A stretch of DNA of 64,000 nucleotides. Origin: Symbiodinium sp. CCMP2592. Its lineage: Eukaryota > Sar > Dinophyceae > Suessiales > Symbiodiniaceae. The stretch lies in assembly GCA_905221615.1 (NCBI GenBank), contig CAJNDT010000001.1, positions 1 to 64,000 of the forward strand, written 5' to 3'. The notes under the pieces are model-generated. The model did no database searches. It was not told the origin of the DNA and saw only the letters and a list, made by a program, of their open reading frames with translations. A program made the position numbers and the translations under genes. Shown one piece after another: positions 1 through 56,542 of this stretch (the stretch's first letter is position 1; each line of letters opens with the position of its first letter).

Positions 1-45
1 ACCGCCGAAACCCCTCCCACCAGCCCCTCAAACCCCTAAAAACAC

Positions 46-106
46 CAAACGGACAGTGCCAGAGACACTGGTTGGCTGAATTTGTGTCTCTGGCACTGTC
101 CGTTTG
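46..106. repeat. Foldback hairpin 1
   Basis: A perfect 23-nt inverted repeat (46-68 and 84-106) with a 15-nt loop. The arms read CAAACGGACAGTGCCAGAGA and onward, ending CAC. It is flanked by CCCTAAA-like sequence and resembles a solo MITE-type foldback. A diverged relative lies at 161-217. Confidence 0.85.
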
Positions 107-160
107 CACAAAAGCAACCAAACCTCTCCACCCAGCAAACCCTAAACCCCAAAAACACTA

Positions 161-217
161 AACAGACAGTGTCAGAGACACTAATTCACTCAACCAGTGT
201 CTTTGGCACTGTCCGGT
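161..217. repeat. Foldback hairpin 2, diverged copy
   Basis: Imperfect inverted repeat with arms at 161-182 and 196-217, clearly related to the hairpin at 46-106 (shared GACAGTG and CAGAGACAC cores). The two form a tandem pair marking the left edge of the GTCTGAC island. The arms have several mismatches, so this copy is older or less constrained. Confidence 0.75.
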
Positions 218-240
218 TGAAGCCTTAGACCCTCACGGCT

Positions 241-589
241 TTACTATCTGATACGACTCCAACCCCAACTCTTGTGTCCTCGGCCCATCCAGTGGAAATA
301 ACTTTGTTCTTCTTGAACAGCAAGCGGTCGTTGTCATACCTAAGATCATGCTGATTCTCTGTAATCTTCAGTACAATAACAATAATATTAAACTTTAACT
401 ATGCATAATTTTGGTTATTATCATTTATTAGTTTATTTAAATATTGTAAACTATGACAGACCCTGGTATTCGTTTATTTTGTAGTTCCAGTCGTATCATA
501 TGATTCATCAACGAAAACGTGATGTAAAGAAATCAAACTGACTCTAATTTAATTAATTAGTTATTACATATTATTTATTATTATTAATA
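241..589. other. AT-rich stretch without a gene
   Basis: No ORF of note. From about 361 the sequence is strongly AT-rich, with runs of ATTAATT and TTATTATTATT, and lacks both the GTCTGAC motif and telomere-like repeat. It could be the 3' flank or an intron of the minus-strand gene that begins at 1279. Confidence 0.5.
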
Positions 590-1279
590 TTAAAATGATA
601 TAATATGTGTAGTTGTCAAGCCCTCTGTGCCGTCGTTGTAATTGCAGTTGAAATGCAGAAGCTTGGCCAAAAGTCTGACGATGCGGGCATGGTCGTAAGA
701 CTTGTTATGTGCAGCCGGGAAGTTTTGGGTGTCTGACCGACTTGCAATCTCCGCTCTTCTGACGTACTCCTCTGCCTGGGCTCCTAAAGGCGTTCGCACC
801 ACCTCCACGGCCAATCGAATCTGGGCTGCTGTGGGAGCGTGCTCTGACCTGCAATTGTCAGCATTGTCCTCGCCACCGGGCCCGGGGTCTGACGATCCCT
901 GGGCGGCTTTCACAGCGGCCTGGTGGAAGTCCGTGCTCAGAGCATGTCTGGCAAGGTCAATCTTCTGAATCTTGCCGTTCGTGAATTTCTGACACTTTGT
1001 CCACGGAGAATCTCGAACAGGCTGATCCCATAATTTATAACCTCTACCCGACGGTGCTTGCCCACTGTCTGACCTGCAGCCAAAGTCGCGGCAATACTTG
1101 CAGCCCAAACCCCAAGGCTTGTCAGGGTCTGACTCGACCAACCAATCAAAAGCACGTGACCACTTCCGGCGGTGCTTGATGAAGAAGCAGCGGTTGCAGA
1201 TTTTGGTGGCTGCCCTGAGTGATCCGTGCTCTGACACGCACCGCCGCTGGTGATCGACATCGGGGCTGCGGGCCCTCAT
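590..1279 (-). CDS. Putative C2-H2 (BED/TTF-like) zinc-finger protein or exon
   Basis: A 229-codon ORF ending in a stop at 590. About 55 residues in there is a Trp followed by GCKYCRDFGC, and about 45 residues later the segment RHALSTDFHQAAVKAA. The order W...C-x2-C...H-x5-H is what BED or TTF-type zinc fingers of hAT-like transposases and related dinoflagellate families show; the assignment is an inference from residue spacing. The C-terminal third is not recognisable. An in-frame stop lies at 1307-1309, so the ATG at 1277-1279 is either the true start or close to a splice acceptor. Ten TCTGAC-type motifs fall in or beside it. It could be the last exon of a longer gene running from about 6964. 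Confidence 0.45.
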   Translation of the reverse strand: MRARSPDVDHQRRCVSEHGSLRAATKICNRCFFIKHRRKWSRAFDWLVESDPDKPWGLGCKYCRDFGCRSDSGQAPSGRGYKLWDQPVRDSPWTKCQKFTNGKIQKIDLARHALSTDFHQAAVKAAQGSSDPGPGGEDNADNCRSEHAPTAAQIRLAVEVVRTPLGAQAEEYVRRAEIASRSDTQNFPAAHNKSYDHARIVRLLAKLLHFNCNYNDGTEGLTTTHIISF

Positions 1280-2218
1280 GGTCTGACAGTCTTTAGCGTT
1301 AGTCAGCTAGCCTTACTTACTACTGCTTATACTGCACTGCTGCTGCTGGACTTCTGAGTTGGACACTATCTCTGACTAGCAAACTGCGCCTTTGAGCACG
1401 CATGGAGGGTGCCTACTGGATCCCAGTACGCACCCTCCACGCCTGCTCAAAGTCACACTGATTTACGAAGCAAGTAACCTGTCAAAGTAGTTAGTCGTAA
1501 GCAGTTACAGTAGTGTAAGTCTACAGTAGTAAGTCAAGTAGATTTGCGGCCTGCTTGTGTGCATGTATGTCTGACTGACGACGGCAGTGAAAACGACAAG
1601 GGAGTTGCACAGCAAGCGATGCCAAACAACAACCAACAACCGCCGCTGATTCAAGAACGAATCTGGGTACGGAACCATGCTGCATGCTCAAACGAGTCGA
1701 GGCCAACACCTGATTCATGCTGAAGCGCAACTGCTGTGACTCAGACTCCCAACTCGACTCACGTCGTCAGGAACTGAGCCATTGACCTGTCTGACCATCC
1801 GACCAATGTGGCTGGAGAAGGACGTCCCGACCTGAACATGCGCTGAACCTACTACTATAATAAAACTCACGCTTTGCATCGACGCTGAGCACAGAGCTGG
1901 TCGAGGTCACAAGTCTGACCACACCTGCTCATGTTAGTCGGAAGTGGTCTAACACTGTCTGACTGTCTTAGATAATTATATCATCACGTTCACACATTTT
2001 TCATTTCTGGGCTTATCTGACTCGGAAATGGTGGCACTCTGGCAAAGGATCTCCGAGTCTGACTCTTGACTTGAAGAGCCAGCGATAAAATTTGAGAGGA
2101 GCTCAAGCTTGGAGCTCAATTTCGGACAGCAGGACACGGCTGGATCAAAATAATATCATCGTCTAACGAGATTAGTATGCCTATGCAATGCAACTTAGAG
2201 GTCTGACTTTCATCTTAC
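1280..2218. other. Island sequence without a convincing gene
   Basis: Only a 69-codon minus ORF (1521-1730) is open, and it resembles no family I recognise. GTCTGAC motifs continue through the stretch (1281, 1370, 1569, 1789, 1913, 1957, 2015, 2057, 2201), so whatever the motif marks is not limited to long ORFs. A strong hairpin lies at 1390-1452. Confidence 0.5.
1390..1452. other. Long near-perfect stem-loop
   Basis: Arms at 1390-1412 and 1430-1452 pair with about two mismatches (CTTTGAGCAC.. with ..GCTCAAAG, and GGAGGGTGC with GCACCCTCC). An inner TACTGG/CCAGTA stem extends the helix almost to a four-base loop. It is the only strong foldback inside the GTCTGAC island and has the size of a short RNA hairpin precursor or a structured UTR element. 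Function unknown. Confidence 0.7.
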
Positions 2219-2467
2219 TCATTTGGTCCAGCCTTGTGACCAGCCGCCCTGCTGCTGGTTCCAGCCGCCCTGCTGCTTGTCCCAGCTGCCCTGCTGCTGC
2301 GACCAGCCGTCTGACTGCTGCCCTCCAGACTGGCCGTTGTTTGACGATTGCTGCCCCTGATGCCAGCCATCGTTCGTGTAGTCTGACTTCCACCAGCCAG
2401 ACCACTTCGACGAGTCGCCATTTTTCTGCCAGTTCTGATGGCTTTGAGTCTGACTCCAGCCCTGCAA
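2219..2467 (-). CDS. Trp/Gln/Gly-rich low-complexity exon
   Basis: An 82-codon minus-strand ORF made of degenerate repeats such as QQGSWDKQQGGWNQQQGGW with regularly spaced Trp. It probably encodes a disordered, low-complexity segment of a larger protein. The Trp-rich style is shared with the Ser/Trp tract of the ORF at 6182-6964, supporting a single gene or gene family across the island. Motif copies at 2309, 2381 and 2448 fall inside. AT-rich sequence (about 2490-2570) follows on the higher-coordinate side and could be an intron. No function can be named. Confidence 0.4.
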   Translation of the reverse strand: MQGWSQTQSHQNWQKNGDSSKWSGWWKSDYTNDGWHQGQQSSNNGQSGGQQSDGWSQQQGSWDKQQGGWNQQQGGWSQGWTK

Positions 2468-2985
2468 GGTTTCGCAAATGTGCCAGTATGCTATGATGTT
2501 ATTATAATCTATATTTAATATTAAATTTTTAAAATTGTTGGTATAATTACAGTTAATCGTTAAATCCGAAGAACAACAACAGAAACCGCTGCGGTTGTGT
2601 CAAGTCGCTTGGCCGTCTGACGAGCTTGCAGGCTGGCCTTGGGAGGGGTCTGACGACCCTGCAGGCGTGGCAGGTGGGCCCGGAGGCATCACAATGCCAG
2701 GTGCCAAGGTCCAGTCCTAAGCACACGTTTTCTGTCGAAGTGTCTGTGTTTGGCAGCTGCAAAGCCTAAGCTGTCAATGAAGAAATTTGACATTGAACCA
2801 AGGGTCTGTCTGACACTCGGCGTCCTTAAGCCTGCGAGGCCTGTACCAGTTCTTCACCATGTCTTTCGGGTAGTCCCACACTTGTGGGTGGCACCGCACT
2901 TAGATGCAACAAAGCAGTCAAGAATTTTGTCAAAAATTTGCTAAAGCAGCAGCACAACTGGCAAGCTGACATGCAGCCCAGCAGC
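2468..2985. other. Spacer or intron with short ORFs only
   Basis: An AT-rich part (2490-2570) is followed by GC-richer sequence with GTCTGAC at 2615, 2648 and 2808. ORFs of 60-70 codons overlap on both strands and none is convincing. Confidence 0.4.
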
Positions 2986-3264
2986 TCAGCAAATAATTTT
3001 TCTCGTGACCCCAAGATGCGATGACCATGTTGGGGTCTTGGTACATGTGGGCCTCGTCATACTGAAGCCATTGGCCTGGGTCTGGTAGACAATTGTAGCA
3101 AGCATGAACTTCTGTCTGACATGCGACGGCCTCAACTTGAGAATGTGATTGAATGACTCTGACAGACCCACTGCAGCCAAGTTACGTAAGAGTTTTATCG
3201 TCAGTTCTGACGCATAACCCTCACCCCTGGATCGGGATGCTGGGTGCATCATGATCGCAAGCAC
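2986..3264 (-). CDS. Candidate exon, unknown product
   Basis: A 92-codon minus ORF beginning LAIMMHPASRSRGEGYASE and continuing through a mixed hydrophobic/charged segment (ELTIKLLRNLAAVGLSES). Composition looks more like a folded protein than its neighbours. The segment 3265-3330 is AT-rich, consistent with an intron on its 5' side. Motif copies at 3114, 3157 and 3205 lie inside. No family recognised. Confidence 0.3.
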   Translation of the reverse strand: MLAIMMHPASRSRGEGYASELTIKLLRNLAAVGLSESFNHILKLRPSHVRQKFMLATIVYQTQANGFSMTRPTCTKTPTWSSHLGVTRKIIC

Positions 3265-3693
3265 AACCTTGGTAGCAACATGAATTCGAGTTCAACTTAA
3301 CTATTAATTAATTTATTACTGGTAACTTATACTTCTGTGAATGTCTGCGGCGAATTCAGAAGAGGCACAGCGTACGAGGTTGAATCGCACTCTAACCGTT
3401 GCAGTATGAAGTGCATGTGCGGAGACAGGTCGGCCACTTGGTCCATGATCTCAGTCGGTGTGTTGTCGTCTGTGTACAGCTAGACTCAGCTAGACATTGA
3501 TCTGACATGATTCACGACTCAATCTTTAATCCGAGCGACGAGACTGGTTATTTCGTCTGACTTCTCGGCCTTGGGCGCAATTGGCACCGGCACCTTGGGC
3601 ATTCTCCGCCAGCCTCAGACACTGAATCATGAAATTTGCGCACGAACAACACAACAGGCATTGATGAATTTCGTGAACTGAATCGAAGCAATC

Positions 3694-4662
3694 TCACACG
3701 AACAGGTGTAGCAATGCAACCAGGAAGCATTGTCCGACGAGATCGTGCATCAACTTGGACTCCTGTGGCTCCATTCGTGAGTCTAACGTCTTCTTGAGGA
3801 TCTGCTGCCACACGTCGATCTCTGACATGTCCATTTCATTGGTCGTGAGGACCGTCTTCGGGCCTGGCGGCATGTAGCGCTGGCCCTTCGGCTGTCTGGC
3901 CTTGCCAAAAAATCCTTTGCCGGGCCCTGTCGTCGAAGTCTGACTTCGAGATGGGGGACCTTTTCCCGGCGCTGCTTGGCTCGGTCCCGGCAACCATGGA
4001 GCCTGATCCGGAGCCGTCTGACTGGGATCCGGAGCCATCTGACTGGGATCCGGAGCCGTCTGACTGGGACCCGGAGCCGTCTGACTAGGTCCATCGTAGA
4101 ACTTCTGGTCGGCGCTGTCTGACTGCAACTGGGCCTGTTCAGGCACGACGGACAGTTTGGGCTCGCCACCCTGGTGGACAAAAGGATCCTGAGTCTGACC
4201 ACCGCTGTTCAAGTGGGGATAAAGGTGTGACCCGGAGCCAAAGCTGAAGTCTGACCTGGTCTCGTCCTCCGCGATAGGTGGGTCCAGTCGTCCGTCTGGC
4301 ATTATGGTCCTTGCGACGCCTCTGATGGGCTGAGTCGCTGCCCAGCAACCCGGTGCCCGGCTGGGACCATAAGAAACCGGACCAGCTGTCTCCGGGGCGG
4401 CCGTCTCTGTAGTCACAGTCTGACCATATGCTGCATCAGAAGCTGGAACTATCAGAGGTGTGGAAGCTGGAGTCGCAGTCTGACGAACATCAGAAGACCC
4501 TCCCAAAAACTCAGCAGCTGGACTGAGATTCTGCACTGGCACAGTCTGACATTCCGGCACCACTGTTTGCCAGGCCGACGACACAACACTGTAGCTATTG
4601 ACACTAGCTGTGTCTGACTCCACAGTGAAGGACTCCACCGTCATGGTGTCGATGTCTGTCAT
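3694..4662 (-). CDS. Pro/Ser/Gln/Thr-rich low-complexity protein
   Basis: The longest ORF of the island, 322 codons from ATG 4660-4662. The N-terminal 120 residues are Ser/Thr/Val-rich, the middle carries four tandem copies of a seven-residue PSQTAPD-type repeat, and the C-terminal part is more ordinary (IDVWQQILKKTLDSRMEPQ). About thirteen GTCTGAC-type motifs fall within it and are read as Gln-Thr or Ser-Asp/Glu, in two different frames, so the motif is not a peptide signature. No catalytic motif or membrane segment is visible. It may be one exon of a gene extending to 6964 and to lower coordinates. Confidence 0.5.
   Translation of the reverse strand: MTDIDTMTVESFTVESDTASVNSYSVVSSAWQTVVPECQTVPVQNLSPAAEFLGGSSDVRQTATPASTPLIVPASDAAYGQTVTTETAAPETAGPVSYGPSRAPGCWAATQPIRGVARTIMPDGRLDPPIAEDETRSDFSFGSGSHLYPHLNSGGQTQDPFVHQGGEPKLSVVPEQAQLQSDSADQKFYDGPSQTAPGPSQTAPDPSQMAPDPSQTAPDQAPWLPGPSQAAPGKGPPSRSQTSTTGPGKGFFGKARQPKGQRYMPPGPKTVLTTNEMDMSEIDVWQQILKKTLDSRMEPQESKLMHDLVGQCFLVALLHLFV
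4016..4085. repeat. 21-bp tandem repeat inside the ORF
   Basis: Three and a half units of GTCTGACTGGGATCCGGAGC plus one base, starting at 4016, 4037, 4058 and 4079. Each unit contains one GTCTGAC-type motif (one is ATCTGAC) and encodes PSQTAPD/G on the minus strand. Confidence 0.9.
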
Positions 4663-5388
4663 GGCTGGAAACCAACGGTCTGACTAGTCAAGACTCAGAC
4701 TCACATGGTCACAGCCTGAGGCCGTCCGACTCGCTCTGACCTACACTAAGTGTCTGTCTGATAGGCCCTAGCTGGCTTAGGCAATGCAGTGAGAACGTGG
4801 CCATTAAAAAGATCTGACACTGTGACACTGACGTTTTCAATCTTACTACTACGGTCCGGACCGCCATTAATAATAGGCCGTTGAACTTTGCTCAAAGGCC
4901 CTGAGTGAAAATCTGACTGCAGGCAGGTTTCATGGATTTGGCACACAAACTCTGACATCAAGAACTTGCAAGAGAAATAATATGCATCTCAATGTCCTGC
5001 CTCGTCCAGGCAGTCGACAGTGCCGCATGTACCAAAACACCTGGGCCACAGAGAATCAATCAAGCACTCACCAGCAACTCCGAACTCTGGCAGCAACACC
5101 AATGCCAAGGCCAAGGCAGCGATGTCTGACAATCTCGCCCCAACCTGCACGTGCACAATCAATGCTAACACGGCAAAGGTGCAGCTCGGTCACACAATCC
5201 GCAGTCACGGTCTGGCAATTTTACTTTGAATTGCTGTCTGAATGCCGTCAGTCTAACCGTAAGTGCTCTTGCAATCTTACGGGACGGGGACGTCTTCACT
5301 GTCTGACAAATGCTGCCAACAGTGTCTGACGTGACGAGTCTTGTCTGTCAGACTGCGACCCCAATTCCACGGCTTTGTGAACATCTAA
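4663..5388. other. Island spacer with a short hydrophobic ORF
   Basis: No long gene. A minus ORF at 4989-5171 contains a membrane-like run (AALALALVLLPEFG) followed by several Cys, and could be an exon; an overlapping plus ORF (4982-5329) is equally open. Motif copies continue at 4678, 4734, 4812, 4911, 4950, 5124, 5301 and 5324, with an inverted one at 5347. Confidence 0.35.
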
Positions 5389-5630
5389 CTAAGGCGAACG
5401 GCCAGGAGCGGCCTTCGCCGGAAAAGGCGCCTGCGCTTTCGTCTGACCTGGAGTCCCAACTGGCTGGGTAATGATCGGCGACGCAGCAGCTGGAGTCTGA
5501 CCTTCGGTCATCGTGCTTGCCGGCGTCACCAAGTGAGTCCCAGAACTCATGGTCTGACCAGGAGGCGGGGGCAGAGTCTGACTTGGCAAGGGCGGCGGCA
5601 GCGGGCTTGCCCGTGCGATGTTCTGACAGG
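5389..5630 (-). CDS. Pro-rich exon
   Basis: Minus-strand reading with PLPPPLPSQTLPPPPGQT followed by Thr/Pro/Ala-rich sequence and a stop near 5389. Each GTCTGAC motif (5441, 5495, 5552, 5576) is read as Gly/Ser-Gln-Thr. Disordered linker-like composition. AT-rich sequence at 5640-5820 on its 5' side looks like an intron. Confidence 0.4.
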
Positions 5631-5794
5631 GAAACGATTAAAGGATAATGGCGTTAAAGGCTTGTGAGTTCAACGGTTAATAACTAAAATCCAAAGTTTA
5701 TGCCAATGTCTATGTAGTCCTGCAATAGTCTTAAATCTAGTTCATATAAACCAAACTTAAAAACTTACGTTGCGGACCTATAATATATTATAAA

Positions 5795-6046
5795 TTATGA
5801 TAATAATCTATATTTTGGACTGTGGATCCCAGCCTGACCCGACAAGTACTCGCCAACCAGGGTGTTGTACTGCTGCTCTGACATGTTACCAGCACAGCGG
5901 CTCTGGGCCAGATGGGTCATCGCGAGAGAAACGCCCAACTTGTCTGACACCACCTGCTTCTCCTCGACCACCTGCAAATATTTGTCGGCAAGCCGTGCCT
6001 TAGATTGGCCGAGCATGACGAAACAAATAACCACGCTGACTGACAA
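5795..6046 (-). CDS. Candidate helical exon, unknown product
   Basis: Minus-strand segment with ARLADKYLQVVEEKQVVSDK and MSEQQYNTLVGEYLSGQAG, typical of a folded alpha-helical domain and unlike the low-complexity neighbours. It is bounded on both sides by AT-rich DNA (5640-5820 and 6060-6190) lacking the GTCTGAC motif, so it is probably an internal exon. Motif copies at 5876 and 5942 lie within the coding part. Confidence 0.45.
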   Translation of the reverse strand: MSVSVVICFVMLGQSKARLADKYLQVVEEKQVVSDKLGVSLAMTHLAQSRCAGNMSEQQYNTLVGEYLSGQAGIHSPKYRLLS

Positions 6047-6181
6047 ACGTACTGGTTTCTAAAACCAAACTGAATAATTAATTCAAAGCAACAGATTAAA
6101 CCATAACACTGTTTATAAGAAGTTTAATAAAAATAATAATCTGTTAATCAACTTAATTTATGATCACGCTGATTGACAATT

Positions 6182-6964
6182 TCATACCAAACTAAACTGA
6201 ATTGAAAATTCAAGCCTAGGAGCCAGGGCGTCTGACACTTGTGCGGCGTCTTCTTGCTGCCTCGGCTGCTCCCTTGGCTCCCTTTGCGCGCAGTCTGACC
6301 AAGACCAGGCCGACGCCGATGACCAGTCTGACGACCTCCACCAGGACGACGACGACCAGGACCAGTCCGACGATGAGGATTGCCACGACTGCCACTCCCG
6401 GTCCGCCCCGATCTCTGACGTCGTCTTGACCTTCCACCGTCTGTTCTGCTTCTTGTTCGGACCCGGGGCCTGGACCTTGTGGTCTGACGTCATCGGCTTG
6501 GCCTTTGGCGGGGTTGGCGTTGGTCCTGGTGAGTCTGACACCAGGTCCGCATGAATGCCCCTGGCCTTTGGATCTGACGCCGCTGCCTTCGATCCCGATG
6601 CCACGCTCTCTGACTTTGCCGCGGCCTTGAACGTCAGACGTGGCTCGATCACTGTCAGACGCTCTCTGGGGTTTTCCTCGAACGGTGACGACACCGGCGA
6701 GGTTGGCGTCATAGCCGGCTCAGTCGGAGTGTAATTCGTCTGACTGGGGCTCCTTGACCTCGACGGTGACCTTGTCGTCATCTTCGTCACCGGCGTCTGA
6801 CCAATGCCGTCCTTCGGCTCAGCGCCCGTCGGCTCTTCTGTCGTCTTACGAGCGCCCTCCTCCTCAGGCACCGGGGGGAGTGGCTGATTCCTCGTAGTCT
6901 GACGCTTGGTGTTGAAGTGCGGCATCCCTTTGAGCTCGGGCTTGCGCTGGCGCACCATGGCCAA
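6182..6964 (-). CDS. Ser/Pro/Arg and Ser/Trp-rich protein, 5' exon
   Basis: A 260-codon ORF from ATG 6962-6964 (MAMVRQRKPELKG). It opens with a basic, Pro-rich region, passes through an SR-like stretch (SPSRSRSPSQ) and a Ser/Thr/Pro linker, and ends in a Ser/Trp-rich tract (SDWSWSSSSWWRSSDWS). The last codons before the stop run into AT-rich DNA, and a GC-type donor is possible at CTCCTAG|GCTTGA, so the annotated stop may be intronic. About fourteen motif copies fall inside, two inverted. It could be the first exon of a gene continuing to lower coordinates. Function unknown; SR-like and Trp-rich tracts hint at RNA or protein interaction but prove nothing. Confidence 0.5.
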   Translation of the reverse strand: MAMVRQRKPELKGMPHFNTKRQTTRNQPLPPVPEEEGARKTTEEPTGAEPKDGIGQTPVTKMTTRSPSRSRSPSQTNYTPTEPAMTPTSPVSSPFEENPRERLTVIEPRLTFKAAAKSESVASGSKAAASDPKARGIHADLVSDSPGPTPTPPKAKPMTSDHKVQAPGPNKKQNRRWKVKTTSEIGADREWQSWQSSSSDWSWSSSSWWRSSDWSSASAWSWSDCAQREPREQPRQQEDAAQVSDALAPRLEFSIQFSLV

Positions 6965-7375
6965 AAATCTGTCTGACCACAGCTAGAGGACTCACTCAAA
7001 CCCACACGCAGTCAGACGAGTCATGAAATACCGATTGAAACTCCTGAATATCAATGATCAGAATCATAATCTGAAATCTAATCATCGCCGATGTCTTACA
7101 CTGAGACTGACTAGCTGATGGTCCGAACTGCCTGCAGTCAAGACGGTCAAAGGAGCTTGCAAGCAAGTCAATCAAACAGCACAGGCCGAAAGGTGCGTGC
7201 AAACGCCAGCCTCCACCTCCACGGCGCCATCACATCGTCGAGGAGACCAGCGATGTTGTCTGACCTTCGCGAATTTAAATTGAAATTATGCGAGAATGAG
7301 TCTGACTACCACTTAGGGTTTTAGTGGTTCAAGGTCTAGGGGTTAGGGTTTGGGGTTGGGCTTAGGGTTAAGGCG

Positions 7376-8262
7376 GGGCCAATGGCTCACCAGCAAAGCT
7401 GGGCCAATGGCTCACCCGACAGTGCCCAGAACAGCTGGGGCCAATGGCACACCCGATGGGGCCAGTGGCTACACCCAGCAACCCGGGGCCAAGGGCTCAC
7501 CCAGCACTGCTGGGGCCAATGGCTCACCCGGCGGACCGGGGCCAATGGCTCACCCAGAAAAGTTGGGGCCAATGGCTGACGCACGGGGCCAAGGGCTCAC
7601 CCAGTAAAGCTGGGGCCAGTGGCACACCCGAGCAGTGGTTGGGGCCATCGGCTCACCCAGCAAAGCTGGGGCCGATGGCACACCCAACACCGGGGCCAAT
7701 GGCTCACCCAGCAAAGCTGGGGCCAGTGGCACACCCGAGCACTGGTTGGGGCCATCGGCACACCCAGCAAAGCTGGGGCCGATGGCACACCCAACAGCGG
7801 GGCCAATGGCTCACCCAGCAAAGCTGGGGCCAATGGCACACCCAACCAGCGCCAATGGCTCGCCCAGCAAAGCTGGGGCCAACGGCACGGCAGCACGGGG
7901 CCATCGGCTCACCCAGCAGAACTGGGGCCAATGGCGCACCCGGCGCACCGGGCCAATGGCTCACCCAGCACTGCTGGGGCCAATGGCTCACGCGGCGGAC
8001 CGGGGCCAATGGCTCACCCAGCACTGCTGGGGCCAATGGCCCACCCGGCGGGGCCAATGGCTCGCCCAGCACTGCTGGGGCCAATGGCACACCCAAGTCA
8101 ATCAAAGATCCTGGGCCAATGGCTCACCCAGCTAAGCTGGGGCCAATGGCACACCAGGAACCGAGGCCAATGGCACGCCCAGCAAGGCTGGGGCCAATGG
8201 CTCACTCGGCAGGCTCGGGCCATGGCTCACCCAGCAAGCTGGGGCCATGGCTCACCGAGCTG
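7376..8262. repeat. GC-rich minisatellite, about 27-bp unit, hairpin in every unit
   Basis: About 33 degenerate units of GGGGCCAATGGCTCACCCAG plus CAAAGCT. Each unit contains an inverted repeat CCCAGC-AAA-GCTGGG, and variants change both arms together (CCCAGC-ACT-GCTGGG, CCCGG-CGGA-CCGGG). ORFs of up to 283 codons on both strands are by-products of the repeat and are not annotated. Short TTTAGGG-type tracts flank the array at 7,314-7,375 and 8,280-8,335. Confidence 0.9.
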
Positions 8263-8335
8263 CAAAACGACGCAAACGAGGGGTTTAGGGTTTAGGGGTT
8301 CAGGGGTTTAGGGTTTTAGGGCTTAGGGTTAGGGT

Positions 8336-9047
8336 GTCTTACTGTCTCAGCTCCTGACGATGCCTGGATGGGAATGACGACAAAGATCACGGACCATGTC
8401 TGACCTGGCAGAATTAAATACCCTAACTTACCCAATACCTACCCCTTTAGCAAACTTGCGAGGGCGCACCTTCCGAAACCATCGGGCAGCTCGGGGGCTT
8501 TGAGGGGGGGCTTGTCTTACTTGGGCTTTAGTTTTTGTTCTTACATGACTTTCTTGGGGAGCTGCTTCTCATGCAAACATGTTGGAACTTGAGCCACCAG
8601 GGGGCATCTAGAAAAAAAGCTTTCAAGCTCTCCACTTGGGATCCAAGTAATTAAGCAGCCAGAAGAACTACTGTGACCCTTGTATTTTTTCGGGTTTGGG
8701 GTTTATTGGTTTAGGAGTTAAGGCTTTAGGGCTCGCTCTTGCGACACAACTTCGTGCAAGTTACCTCAGTAGGGATGCACGGTGAGTATGTAGAATTCCT
8801 GAAAATGGTGAATTGAGGTCACTTCCTGAATAAATGTAATAACCTCCTTAACAAGCACCCGACTTTGGGGTTCGAGTGTCTCATCTTCTAGAGCTTGGCA
8901 GATCTTCCAGCGGCGTGGACAGGAAGGTGTGAAGTATAGGGACAGAGATGTGTGCTGATTCGGGCAAGGTAAGCAGTGCTTCGTACCTCAAGATCCAACC
9001 GGCCAAACCACTCCTTGATGCCGTGACCGCAGATGTGAGAAATTATT
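8336..9047. other. Non-coding stretch, end of the island
   Basis: 8336-8415 looks like island sequence again, with a GTCTGAC at 8398. After that there is no credible ORF or motif, only isolated TTTAGGG-like words. Confidence 0.4.
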
Positions 9048-23457: not shown

Positions 23458-23772
23458 TTTACGGAACTCCATGTCCCCTCCTGTCTCTATGGGTTTGGGG
23501 CATATGTTGGCTTGGGGATGAGGGTTTAAGCTTTTACGGCTCGGAGCTGATAGGGGTTAGGGTTTATGCTTTAATTTGCTTTTGGGATCTGGGGCTTGGG
23601 TTTTCGGGCTTCTCACCCGAGGTCTTACTTGGCTGTCCTTGGGCTTTCAAGGTGAACCTCGCAGATACCGCCTTTGCCTCTTGCACCCATGAACCCTGAA
23701 CCCCTAACCCCGAAAGCCCTAAACCCTACGTGCCCTAAGCCCTAGACCCCCAACCCCTAAACCGACTGCACA
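23458..23772. other. No gene seen
   Basis: Telomere-like words and short ORFs only. Confidence 0.35.
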
Positions 23773-55985: not shown

Positions 55986-56124
55986 TCCCTGAACCCCAAA
56001 CCCTGTTCTGCAGCCAAAACCCTAAGCCCCACACCCTAAACCCTAAACCAAACAGCTGGCCTGGCTGGAACCTGCGAGCTACTGACATCCCAATGATAGC
56101 CACATCTAAGAGGGTTCAAGTCTA

Positions 56125-56126
56125 GC

Positions 56127-56203
<77 letters not shown>

Positions 56204-56496
56204 CAGTAGTAGCAGTAGTAGCAGTAGTAGCAGTAGTAGCAGTAGTAGCAGTAGTAGCAGTAGTAGTAATAGTAGTAGTAGTAGTAGTAGTAGCAGGAGT
56301 AGGAGTAGGAGTAGGAGTAGGAGTAGTAGTAGTAGTAGTAGTAGTAGTAGCAGTTGCAGTTGCAGTAACAGTAACAGTAACAGCAGCAGTAGTAGTAGTA
56401 GTAGTAGCAGCATTTGCAGTAGTAGTAGTAGTAGTAGTAGTAGTCGTCGTCGTGGTGGTGGTGGCAGTAGGCAGTAGAAGGTAGAAGTAGTAGTAA

Positions 56497-56542
<46 letters not shown>

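Follow-up and report, generated by a model that had tools for sequence, protein, structure and literature searches.

The window analysed here, a stretch of 64,000 nucleotides from Symbiodinium sp. CCMP2592, opens inside a large multicopy mobile element of this dinoflagellate, and the motif-rich stretch at 673–7306 is a piece of that element (Table 1). The element starts to the left of the window and its right end falls at position 8647. We found that other copies align from the window start to 8647–8650, mostly with 99.2–99.7% identity (C735 is less similar, about 96–98% as compared with C5242), after which their flanks diverge, with 11 different right flanks among the 13 copies examined. Near-identical copies with a common end and differing flanks are what generally characterizes a mobile element. 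C1 and C2631 have a common flank, as do C1536 and C846, so haplotigs or duplicates are present among the copies. Two copies, C373 and C846, start within the element, C2562 was compared up to position 6864, and C373 is rearranged, carrying an inverted pair that could be a chimera. As the copies are mostly over 99% identical, the element has probably spread recently. The 382-bp right end gave one strong match per contig except in C373, as judged from the 40 scored of 250 candidates in a comparison that would miss a short repeat. The original prediction had held the repeated word to be no transposon-type repeat; it indeed does not form the end repeat of a transposon, yet the stretch that it fills lies wholly inside a mobile element.

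Table 1. Features of the element within the window.
Feature	Position	Strand	Remark
Right-hand part of mobile element, family A	1..8647	-	contig begins inside element
Final units of 113-bp tandem array, unit with hairpin GGACAGTGCCAGAGACACTGGTT	1..219	.	plus-strand TCTGAC absent
Open frame, 237 aa, putative zinc-finger-like CxxC ... H-x6-H stretch	590..1303	-	reading by eye
Motif-saturated stretch, 71 TCTGAC (51 GTCTGAC)	673..7306	+	GUCAGA(C) in minus-strand RNA
Open frame, 329 aa	3694..4680	-	14 sense words in C1743 counterpart
Open frame, 266 aa, SPSRSRSPS and Ser/Trp-rich low complexity	6182..6979	-	13 sense words in C1743 counterpart
Tandem array, ~27-bp units of GGGGCCAATGGCTCACCCAGC type, flanked by telomere-like tracts	7425..8260	.	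no TCTGAC
Right terminal segment, ending CTTGGGATCCAAG	8266..8647	.	15 places at 99–100%, 9 at 94–96%, 1 at 86% (40 scored of 250 candidates)

The recognised genes of the element all lie on the minus strand, none being oppositely directed, and this is the strand that bears the word in sense; in RNA it would thus read GUCAGA(C), minus-strand transcription being what we infer from the open frames. One of these genes encodes an H3-like protein with a histone-fold match (PF00125, E 3.1e-07, 31.1 bits, cut-off 26.4). Its sole match among PDB chains at E <= 0.01 is a weak one (E 0.0056) to 8UA7, the giant-virus histone H3 of Medusavirus (PMC11500106), and it is this match together with our own reading that suggests H3 rather than another core histone. 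Given how weak that match is, the match to Pfam Histone and the 64 divergent histone matches in the genome, a viral origin is not shown. Single-protein scans of IMG/VR, which reach close relatives only, returned no confirmed relative of the H3-like protein or of a 322-aa protein also encoded by the element. Among the 20 element frames scanned against Pfam, the histone alone passes the cut-off, with no transposase or recombinase in them, and no RNA-binding domain was recognised among the element proteins scanned; the 237-, 329- and 266-aa frames gave no Pfam match. The 237-aa frame has 52 genome matches, made up of 14 open element copies and 38 further, diverged ones, including families with 43% (C924) and 37% (C580) identity. 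B-family polymerase (PF00136) is matched three times in the genome (C5206, C622), never in a known copy, where introns could hide exons, and the genome search for the major capsid protein (PF04451) gave no match, its positive control being equally silent.

The strong orientation bias claimed for TCTGAC at 673–7306 was reproduced exactly by our recount: 71 copies on the plus strand and 4 on the minus strand (read as GTCAGA), the heptamer occurring 51 times as GTCTGAC and 4 times as GTCAGAC. Elsewhere in the window there are 14 plus and 12 minus copies, which is the background level originally stated, so equal density everywhere is not what we see. Over the whole window and both strands, 101 TCTGAC compare with 25.5 ± 5.1 in dinucleotide shuffles (none of 100 shuffles reaches 101). 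The 23.5 kb examined of copy C1743 contain 185 TCTGAC versus 15 GTCAGA; in its 19,751 array-free bases GTCTGAC is present 113 times and its reverse 9 times, where first-order expectation gives 2.5 and 1.6. On the motif-bearing strand the mean interval is about 93 nt, within genes and between them, in a single orientation. The k-mer lists agree with the original prediction that the bases flanking TCTGAC are not conserved, and show that the related words (A/C/T)TCTGAC, GTCTTAC and GTCTAAC are enriched as well. Several one-letter variants of the heptamer are mildly enriched, as decaying words would also be.

The word is distributed unevenly with respect to composition and arrays. The 803 positions of low GC (<35%) have a single word among them, although this scarcity is partly a composition effect. 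TCTGAC is absent from the 113-bp array (plus strand; its units lie at L021 4033–6218 in C1743) and the 27-bp array, and present in every unit of a 33-bp array in the left of the element and of a 21-bp array at 4005–4086 of the window, so some word copies stem from tandem duplication. A plain tandem repeat was rejected as the source of the word, since the former two arrays lack it, though the latter two have it. An m6A-type context was rejected as well, the base following AGAC being near random, and 5-hydroxymethyluracil was set aside, as no motif for it is reported from its mapping in Breviolum (PMC11071213).

Words are found in all three codon frames of the intact H3-like and 322-aa genes, whose frames are intact in many copies. 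The ten long frames split 18/37/51, the 322-aa gene 7/6/7 and the H3-like gene 4/2/2. Density reaches 14.2/kb in the ten long frames versus 8.4/kb elsewhere, a comparison limited by these frames having been chosen by length. A diverged relative of the 322-aa gene, open and 31% identical, that lies outside the element has 0 words in 801 bases, versus 20 in 966 in the element gene. Over 781 aligned bases, families A and B have 4 TCTGAC in common, 3 being specific to A and 7 to B. Gains by substitution alone number 5 and 3 versus simulated means of 0.24 and 0.22; of 5000 runs, 0 and 8 attained the observed numbers. In family B the H3-like gene is broken, and the shared segment is richer in words than in family A. 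Variable substitution columns among near-identical copies fall inside a TCTGAC in 0 of 46 and 0 of 10 cases, for which our own arithmetic gives a P of only about 0.03 (0/56), and none of the 46 island columns creates the word. Indels touch a word in 1 of 5 cases in the left region and 1 of 24 in the island, the latter being a run of gaps where the alignment ends.

The spacing of the word is not random either. Gaps of 8–19 nt were seen 6 times versus 23.2 expected and gaps of 38–69 nt 76 times versus 40.6 expected, in a simulation that allowed overlapping sites and thereby inflated the expected short gaps (<8 nt); words of family B lie 6, 18 and 22 apart. Helical phasing was rejected, as a scan of 230 periods gave no signal at 10.5 bp and nothing beyond weak ones, near the 1% level, at 9.7 and 11.3 bp. 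A preference for accessible loops was likewise rejected: predicted accessibility in the sense RNA is 0.037 versus 0.047 for hexamers of the same composition (P 0.35, no difference), while on the other strand the word falls below the control (0.044 versus 0.068, P 1e-5).

Genome-wide, word triples with gaps of 5–34 occur at 144 places and their reversed-pattern control at 668; triples this close are thus not in excess by themselves. Triples with gaps of 36–66 number 644 versus 248 in the control, and 486 versus 216 in a stricter version. Among the matches listed in contig order before C664, none of the nine diverged zinc-finger relatives (C1 twice, C3, C92, C434, C558 twice, C580 and C654) lies in a stricter-pattern cluster, and neither does any of the three relatives of the 322-aa gene (C202, C446:1514971 and C468). 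An 83% remnant of the 322-aa gene at C113:2162593, again among the matches listed, overlaps a looser-pattern cluster and not a stricter one.

We lean, on balance, towards the reading that the word is kept by selection as sites for sequence-specific RNA binding that are spaced along the transcripts of the element. A function read from one strand, as originally proposed, is supported by the single orientation, the gain of motifs above chance, the spacing exclusion and the use of all three frames of intact genes; of the alternatives then offered, the minus-strand RNA seems to fit best, and the part on transposons needs mending. Selection on the nucleotide sequence would keep and re-create the word, and a sequence-specific factor, be it a host RNA-binding protein, a snRNP or an element-encoded product, would bind GUCAGA(C) in element transcripts. 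With copies preferably 40–70 nt apart, the RNA would be lined with spaced complexes. In the weakest step, the word might mark the RNA of the element as exon-like, as fit for export or as shielded from silencing, host genes having many exons.

The word could instead be a polar DNA signal with all copies pointing to the same end, comparable to Chi or KOPS and recognised by an enzyme that translocates or recombines, or a site for an element-encoded DNA protein in replication, segregation or excision, which we regard as possible though rather unlikely. The word keeps one orientation throughout, also outside long frames, and the element encodes a zinc-finger-like protein and an H3-like histone. Yet the word is denser in open frames, is missing from the 113-bp and 27-bp arrays and is poorly represented in AT-rich stretches; its density far exceeds that of the bacterial examples known to us, and there is no 10.5-bp period beside the weak signals at 9.7 and 11.3 bp. 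The word is also near-palindromic (GTC-T-GAC), so a symmetric binder of duplex DNA should not impose a strand bias. Directed mutation or copying, for instance short templated repair, would make the word without functional selection, and the gains far above random substitution and the wealth of words in family B, with its broken gene, are in its favor. By itself, however, it explains neither the spacing exclusion nor the single orientation, and no new TCTGAC arises in any of the 46 island columns that vary among near-identical copies; we deem it quite improbable.

Marginally less improbable are splice-site-like decoys, in which U1 snRNP, binding GU(C/A/U)AGA as pseudo-5' splice sites, would suppress premature RNA ending or retain the RNA in the nucleus. 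The enriched sense variants GUAAGAC (17 versus 0.7), GUUAGAC (8 versus 0.9), GCCAGAC (9 versus 2.2) and GACAGAC (7 versus 2.4), but not GGCAGAC (3 versus 2.4), form a set resembling the GT/GC/GA donors tabulated for Symbiodinium (PMC5177918). However, GUCGGAC (7 versus 1.1) and GUAUGAC (8 versus 0.7) are enriched too, the base preceding the word is near random, unlike in donors, which follow AG, and words sit in the uninterrupted H3-like and 322-aa frames. The third-base C and sixth-base A also misfit standard U1 pairing. A repeat at the protein level, i.e., Ser-Asp dipeptides or comparable low complexity in the proteins of the minus strand, has very little to commend it: 51 of 106 words fall in the Ser-Asp/Glu frame, more than in either of the others, and 4005–4086 is a short tandem repeat, but the other two frames together hold 55 of 106 and the 322-aa gene is evenly split. 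An assembly artefact or contamination, named at the outset as a possible source of the island, is hardly conceivable. The common flanks and the inverted pair of C373 noted above might hint at it, but near-identical copies lie on many contigs with different flanks, and the assembly holds 429 exact dinoflagellate spliced-leader 21-mers versus 0 for the reversed control, which also bears out the assignment to a dinoflagellate.

We tentatively envisage, short of favoring it outright, a dense strand-specific heptamer code that runs over the entire length of the element, is overlaid on the protein code in all three frames and marks the element's own RNA (or DNA) for packaging or licensing in spaced complexes; the element may itself encode the reader of this code. 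If true, this would be a new way of telling the sequence of a genomic parasite apart from that of its host. A word read on RNA would give access to the ways in which transcripts are recognised, processed or silenced in dinoflagellates, and one read on DNA to the replication or movement of a large element. To our knowledge, in no element or gene family does one oriented heptamer recur about every hundred bases in coding and non-coding stretches alike, with evidence for selection on the gain and spacing of its copies. The listed titles and abstract openings of open-licence literature on dinoflagellate elements and histones contained no account of such a feature, and the bare heptamer or its complement appeared there only under titles on other subjects.

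Large multicopy elements of protist genomes include Polintons, polinton-like viruses and other endogenous DNA viruses (PMC10120064, PMC12721341, PMC12220804), which the present element resembles in this respect; it differs in that its known copies, in the parts examined, are without a PF00136 match. With giant-virus histones it has in common the weak match of its H3-like protein to the Medusavirus H3, a protein that also matches Pfam Histone. Chi and KOPS are likewise short, oriented words over-represented along a replicon, but they lie kilobases apart and genome-wide, whereas here the word recurs about once per 93 bases, more densely in open frames, and is confined, within the sequence examined, to one element and its relatives. 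The uptake sequences DUS and USS are also over-represented words spread through coding sequence; they are much sparser and show no one-strand bias, and nothing here suggests an uptake system. PATC, the A/T clusters that license expression in nematodes, are a locus-wide signal independent of the protein code, as is this word, yet they consist of phased A/T runs in non-coding sequence, in contrast to a heptamer inside frames with no 10.5-bp phasing. The hexamer clusters of the Mmi1-DSR system and exonic splicing enhancers resemble it as short, repeated sense RNA words, theirs being protein-bound; they mark selected transcripts or exons, whereas here more than 23 kb of one element is saturated.

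The oriented-word island that the original prediction placed at 673–7306 of the window proved exact: TCTGAC occurs there 71 times on the plus strand and four times on the minus strand, and GTCTGAC 51 and four times, respectively. The remaining window holds 14 plus and 12 minus copies of TCTGAC, and the whole window 101 matches compared with 25.5 ± 5.1 after shuffling.

Window segment 4001–4700 was found at 15 places in the 1.098-Gb assembly, itself included (12 at about 100% and three at 94–96% identity). Among 13 other copies compared with the window, mostly 99.2–99.7% identical to it, those fully read align from its start to 8647–8650 and no further; C373 and C846 start inside the element, C2562 is read to 6864 only, and the match of C2631 extends into the flank also. 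The C735 copy is less alike (about 96–98% vs. C5242). The element ends on the right with CTTGGGATCCAAG, past which 11 different flanks were found among 13 copies read, one being common to C1/C2631 and another to C1536/C846. Given this common end, the differing flanks and the high identity of copies, we are nearly certain that this stretch lies in a mobile element, of which it forms the right part and which, judging from copy identity, probably spread recently. Among the 40 of 250 candidates scored, the last 382 bases gave 15 matches at 99–100%, nine at 94–96% and one at 86%, with no inverted partner among the strong matches. The dinoflagellate spliced-leader 21-mer is present at 429 exact places (reversed control, 0); thus, the assembly is that of a dinoflagellate.

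The window start falls inside the element. In the copy on contig C1743, the element is still running at contig base 1 and reaches its right end at 23565, with 185 TCTGAC vs. 15 GTCAGA. Measured from the right end, same-orientation triple-word clusters reach 34 kb in C33, 40 kb in C735, 39 kb in C1502, and 30 kb in C2557; since segments of about 9, 11, and 13 kb are duplicated in the first three, the unduplicated length seen is about 25–30 kb. At C373:99783-112577 two right parts form an inverted head-to-head pair, the words being turned along with the inverted piece.

All recognised element genes lie on the minus strand. The H3-like gene is open over 202 aa in 18 copies of the multicopy element, while ten copies at 61–63% (nine of the diverged family B and C1791) carry two or three stops each, and one more match is weak (36%); histone matches in the genome number 64. 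Medusavirus H3 is the only PDB match of this protein at E 0.01 or less, a lead that may hint at a viral link. The 322-aa gene, which has 50 matches including diverged relatives elsewhere, gave no Pfam match; its family's DFTxGxG stretch is reminiscent of motif I of DNA methyltransferases. Only the histone passed the cut-off in a Pfam scan of 20 element frames, NCBIfam and PHROGs scans of ten frames gave one weak PHROG match (E 0.087), and no genomic PF00136 match lies inside a known element copy.

Coordinates of element features (L021 and L035, pieces of copy C1743)
Feature	Location	Strand	Evidence
Core histone, H3-like	L035 7925-8530	minus	PF00125, 31.1 bits
322-aa gene	L035 3556-4521	minus	open in 17 copies
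Open frame	window 590-1303	minus	open in 14 copies; 38 further matches
Tandem array, 113-bp units, long hairpin per unit	window 1-219; L021 4033-6218		
Predicted tRNA gene inside hairpin array	L021 4682-4759		Rfam tRNA, 36.3 bits; ARAGORN tRNA-His GTG

Each unit of a 33-bp array on the left and of a 21-bp array (window 4005–4086) contains the word; the 113-bp hairpin array, possibly a small-RNA or replication signal, and a 27-bp array near the right end are devoid of it. A further short repeat, also multicopy and with several similarly spaced TCTGAC, occurs, among the matches listed, at C1:1381742-1381990, C2:2433054, C446:1828785, and on C69, C276, C391, C407, C461, and C588. The window also carries many telomere-like interstitial TTTAGGG tracts (8281–60873) and a 420-base TAG triplet array (56123–56542).

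The array-free part of the C1743 copy (19,751 bases) has 113 GTCTGAC vs. 2.5 expected (reversed, 9 vs. 1.6). First-base variants of the word (27, 29, and 15 vs. 2.2–3.5), GTCTTAC (17 vs. 0.7) and GTCTAAC (8 vs. 0.9) are also enriched, several further one-letter variants more mildly. Read on the sense strand, the word takes the form GU[C>A>U]AGA[C>n], with free flanking bases. In ten long frames, chosen by length, word density is 14.2/kb compared with 8.4/kb in the rest. Words there start at codon positions 1 (Val-Arg), 2 (x-Gln) and 3 (Ser-Asp/Glu) 18, 37, and 51 times, and the 20 words in the 966 bases of the 322-aa gene are split 7/6/7; as all three positions are used, a protein-level cause was rejected. 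A relative of the 322-aa gene outside the element, 31% identical to it and with 267 aa of open frame, has zero words in 801 bases. The word is very probably selected as nucleotide sequence.

The family B piece L036 resembles family A, that of the window, only around the H3-like gene (78–80%) and carries 12 TCTGAC and one GTCAGA; an insertion of about 1.65 kb in the H3 segment (about 610–2240), with frames that we read as reverse-transcriptase-like, has zero TCTGAC. The C1791 piece, 96.5% like B, holds ten sense words and one antisense in 661 bases. Four TCTGAC are common to both families, three are A-only and seven B-only. Outside gap columns, B gained five words vs. a simulated mean of 0.24 (0/5000 runs reached this) and A three vs. 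0.22 (8/5000), the tests being two non-independent directions of one comparison. Near-identical copies vary by substitution in 46 of 7060 island columns (12 copies, aligned without C846 and C373, which miss the left anchor) and 10 of 3370 columns further left (nine copies; five dropped), none inside the 420 and 186 word columns, respectively (about 3.3 expected). In C735, one variant (window 6293) changes the first G of the word, which is optional. Indels touch a word in one of five cases on the left and one of 24 in the island, the latter being a run of gaps where the alignment ends.

Mean spacing is 93 nt over 207 gaps. Gaps of 8–19 nt are rare (6 vs. 23.2 expected) and those of 38–69 nt frequent (76 vs. 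40.6) in a simulation that allowed overlapping sites; the coefficient of variation is 0.81 vs. 0.985 (P 0.001). Words 6, 18, and 22 apart occur in family B. Word positions show no 10.5-bp period; periods of 9.7 and 11.3 are weak, and one of 3 bases tracks the frames.

One-strand use of a near-palindrome, its agreement with the strand of the genes, its density in frames and a spacing that resembles a footprint lead us to lean slightly toward the word being recognised on a putative element RNA; its predicted accessibility in the sense RNA is not raised, which counts against this. A polar signal read on DNA, which the one-strand use of the word would also suit, seems rather unlikely, and U1-like decoys, a reading that overlaps with recognition on RNA, are more doubtful still. 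The oriented word resembles Chi, KOPS, DUS, DSR, and PATC, a likeness that serves as an analogy rather than a test.
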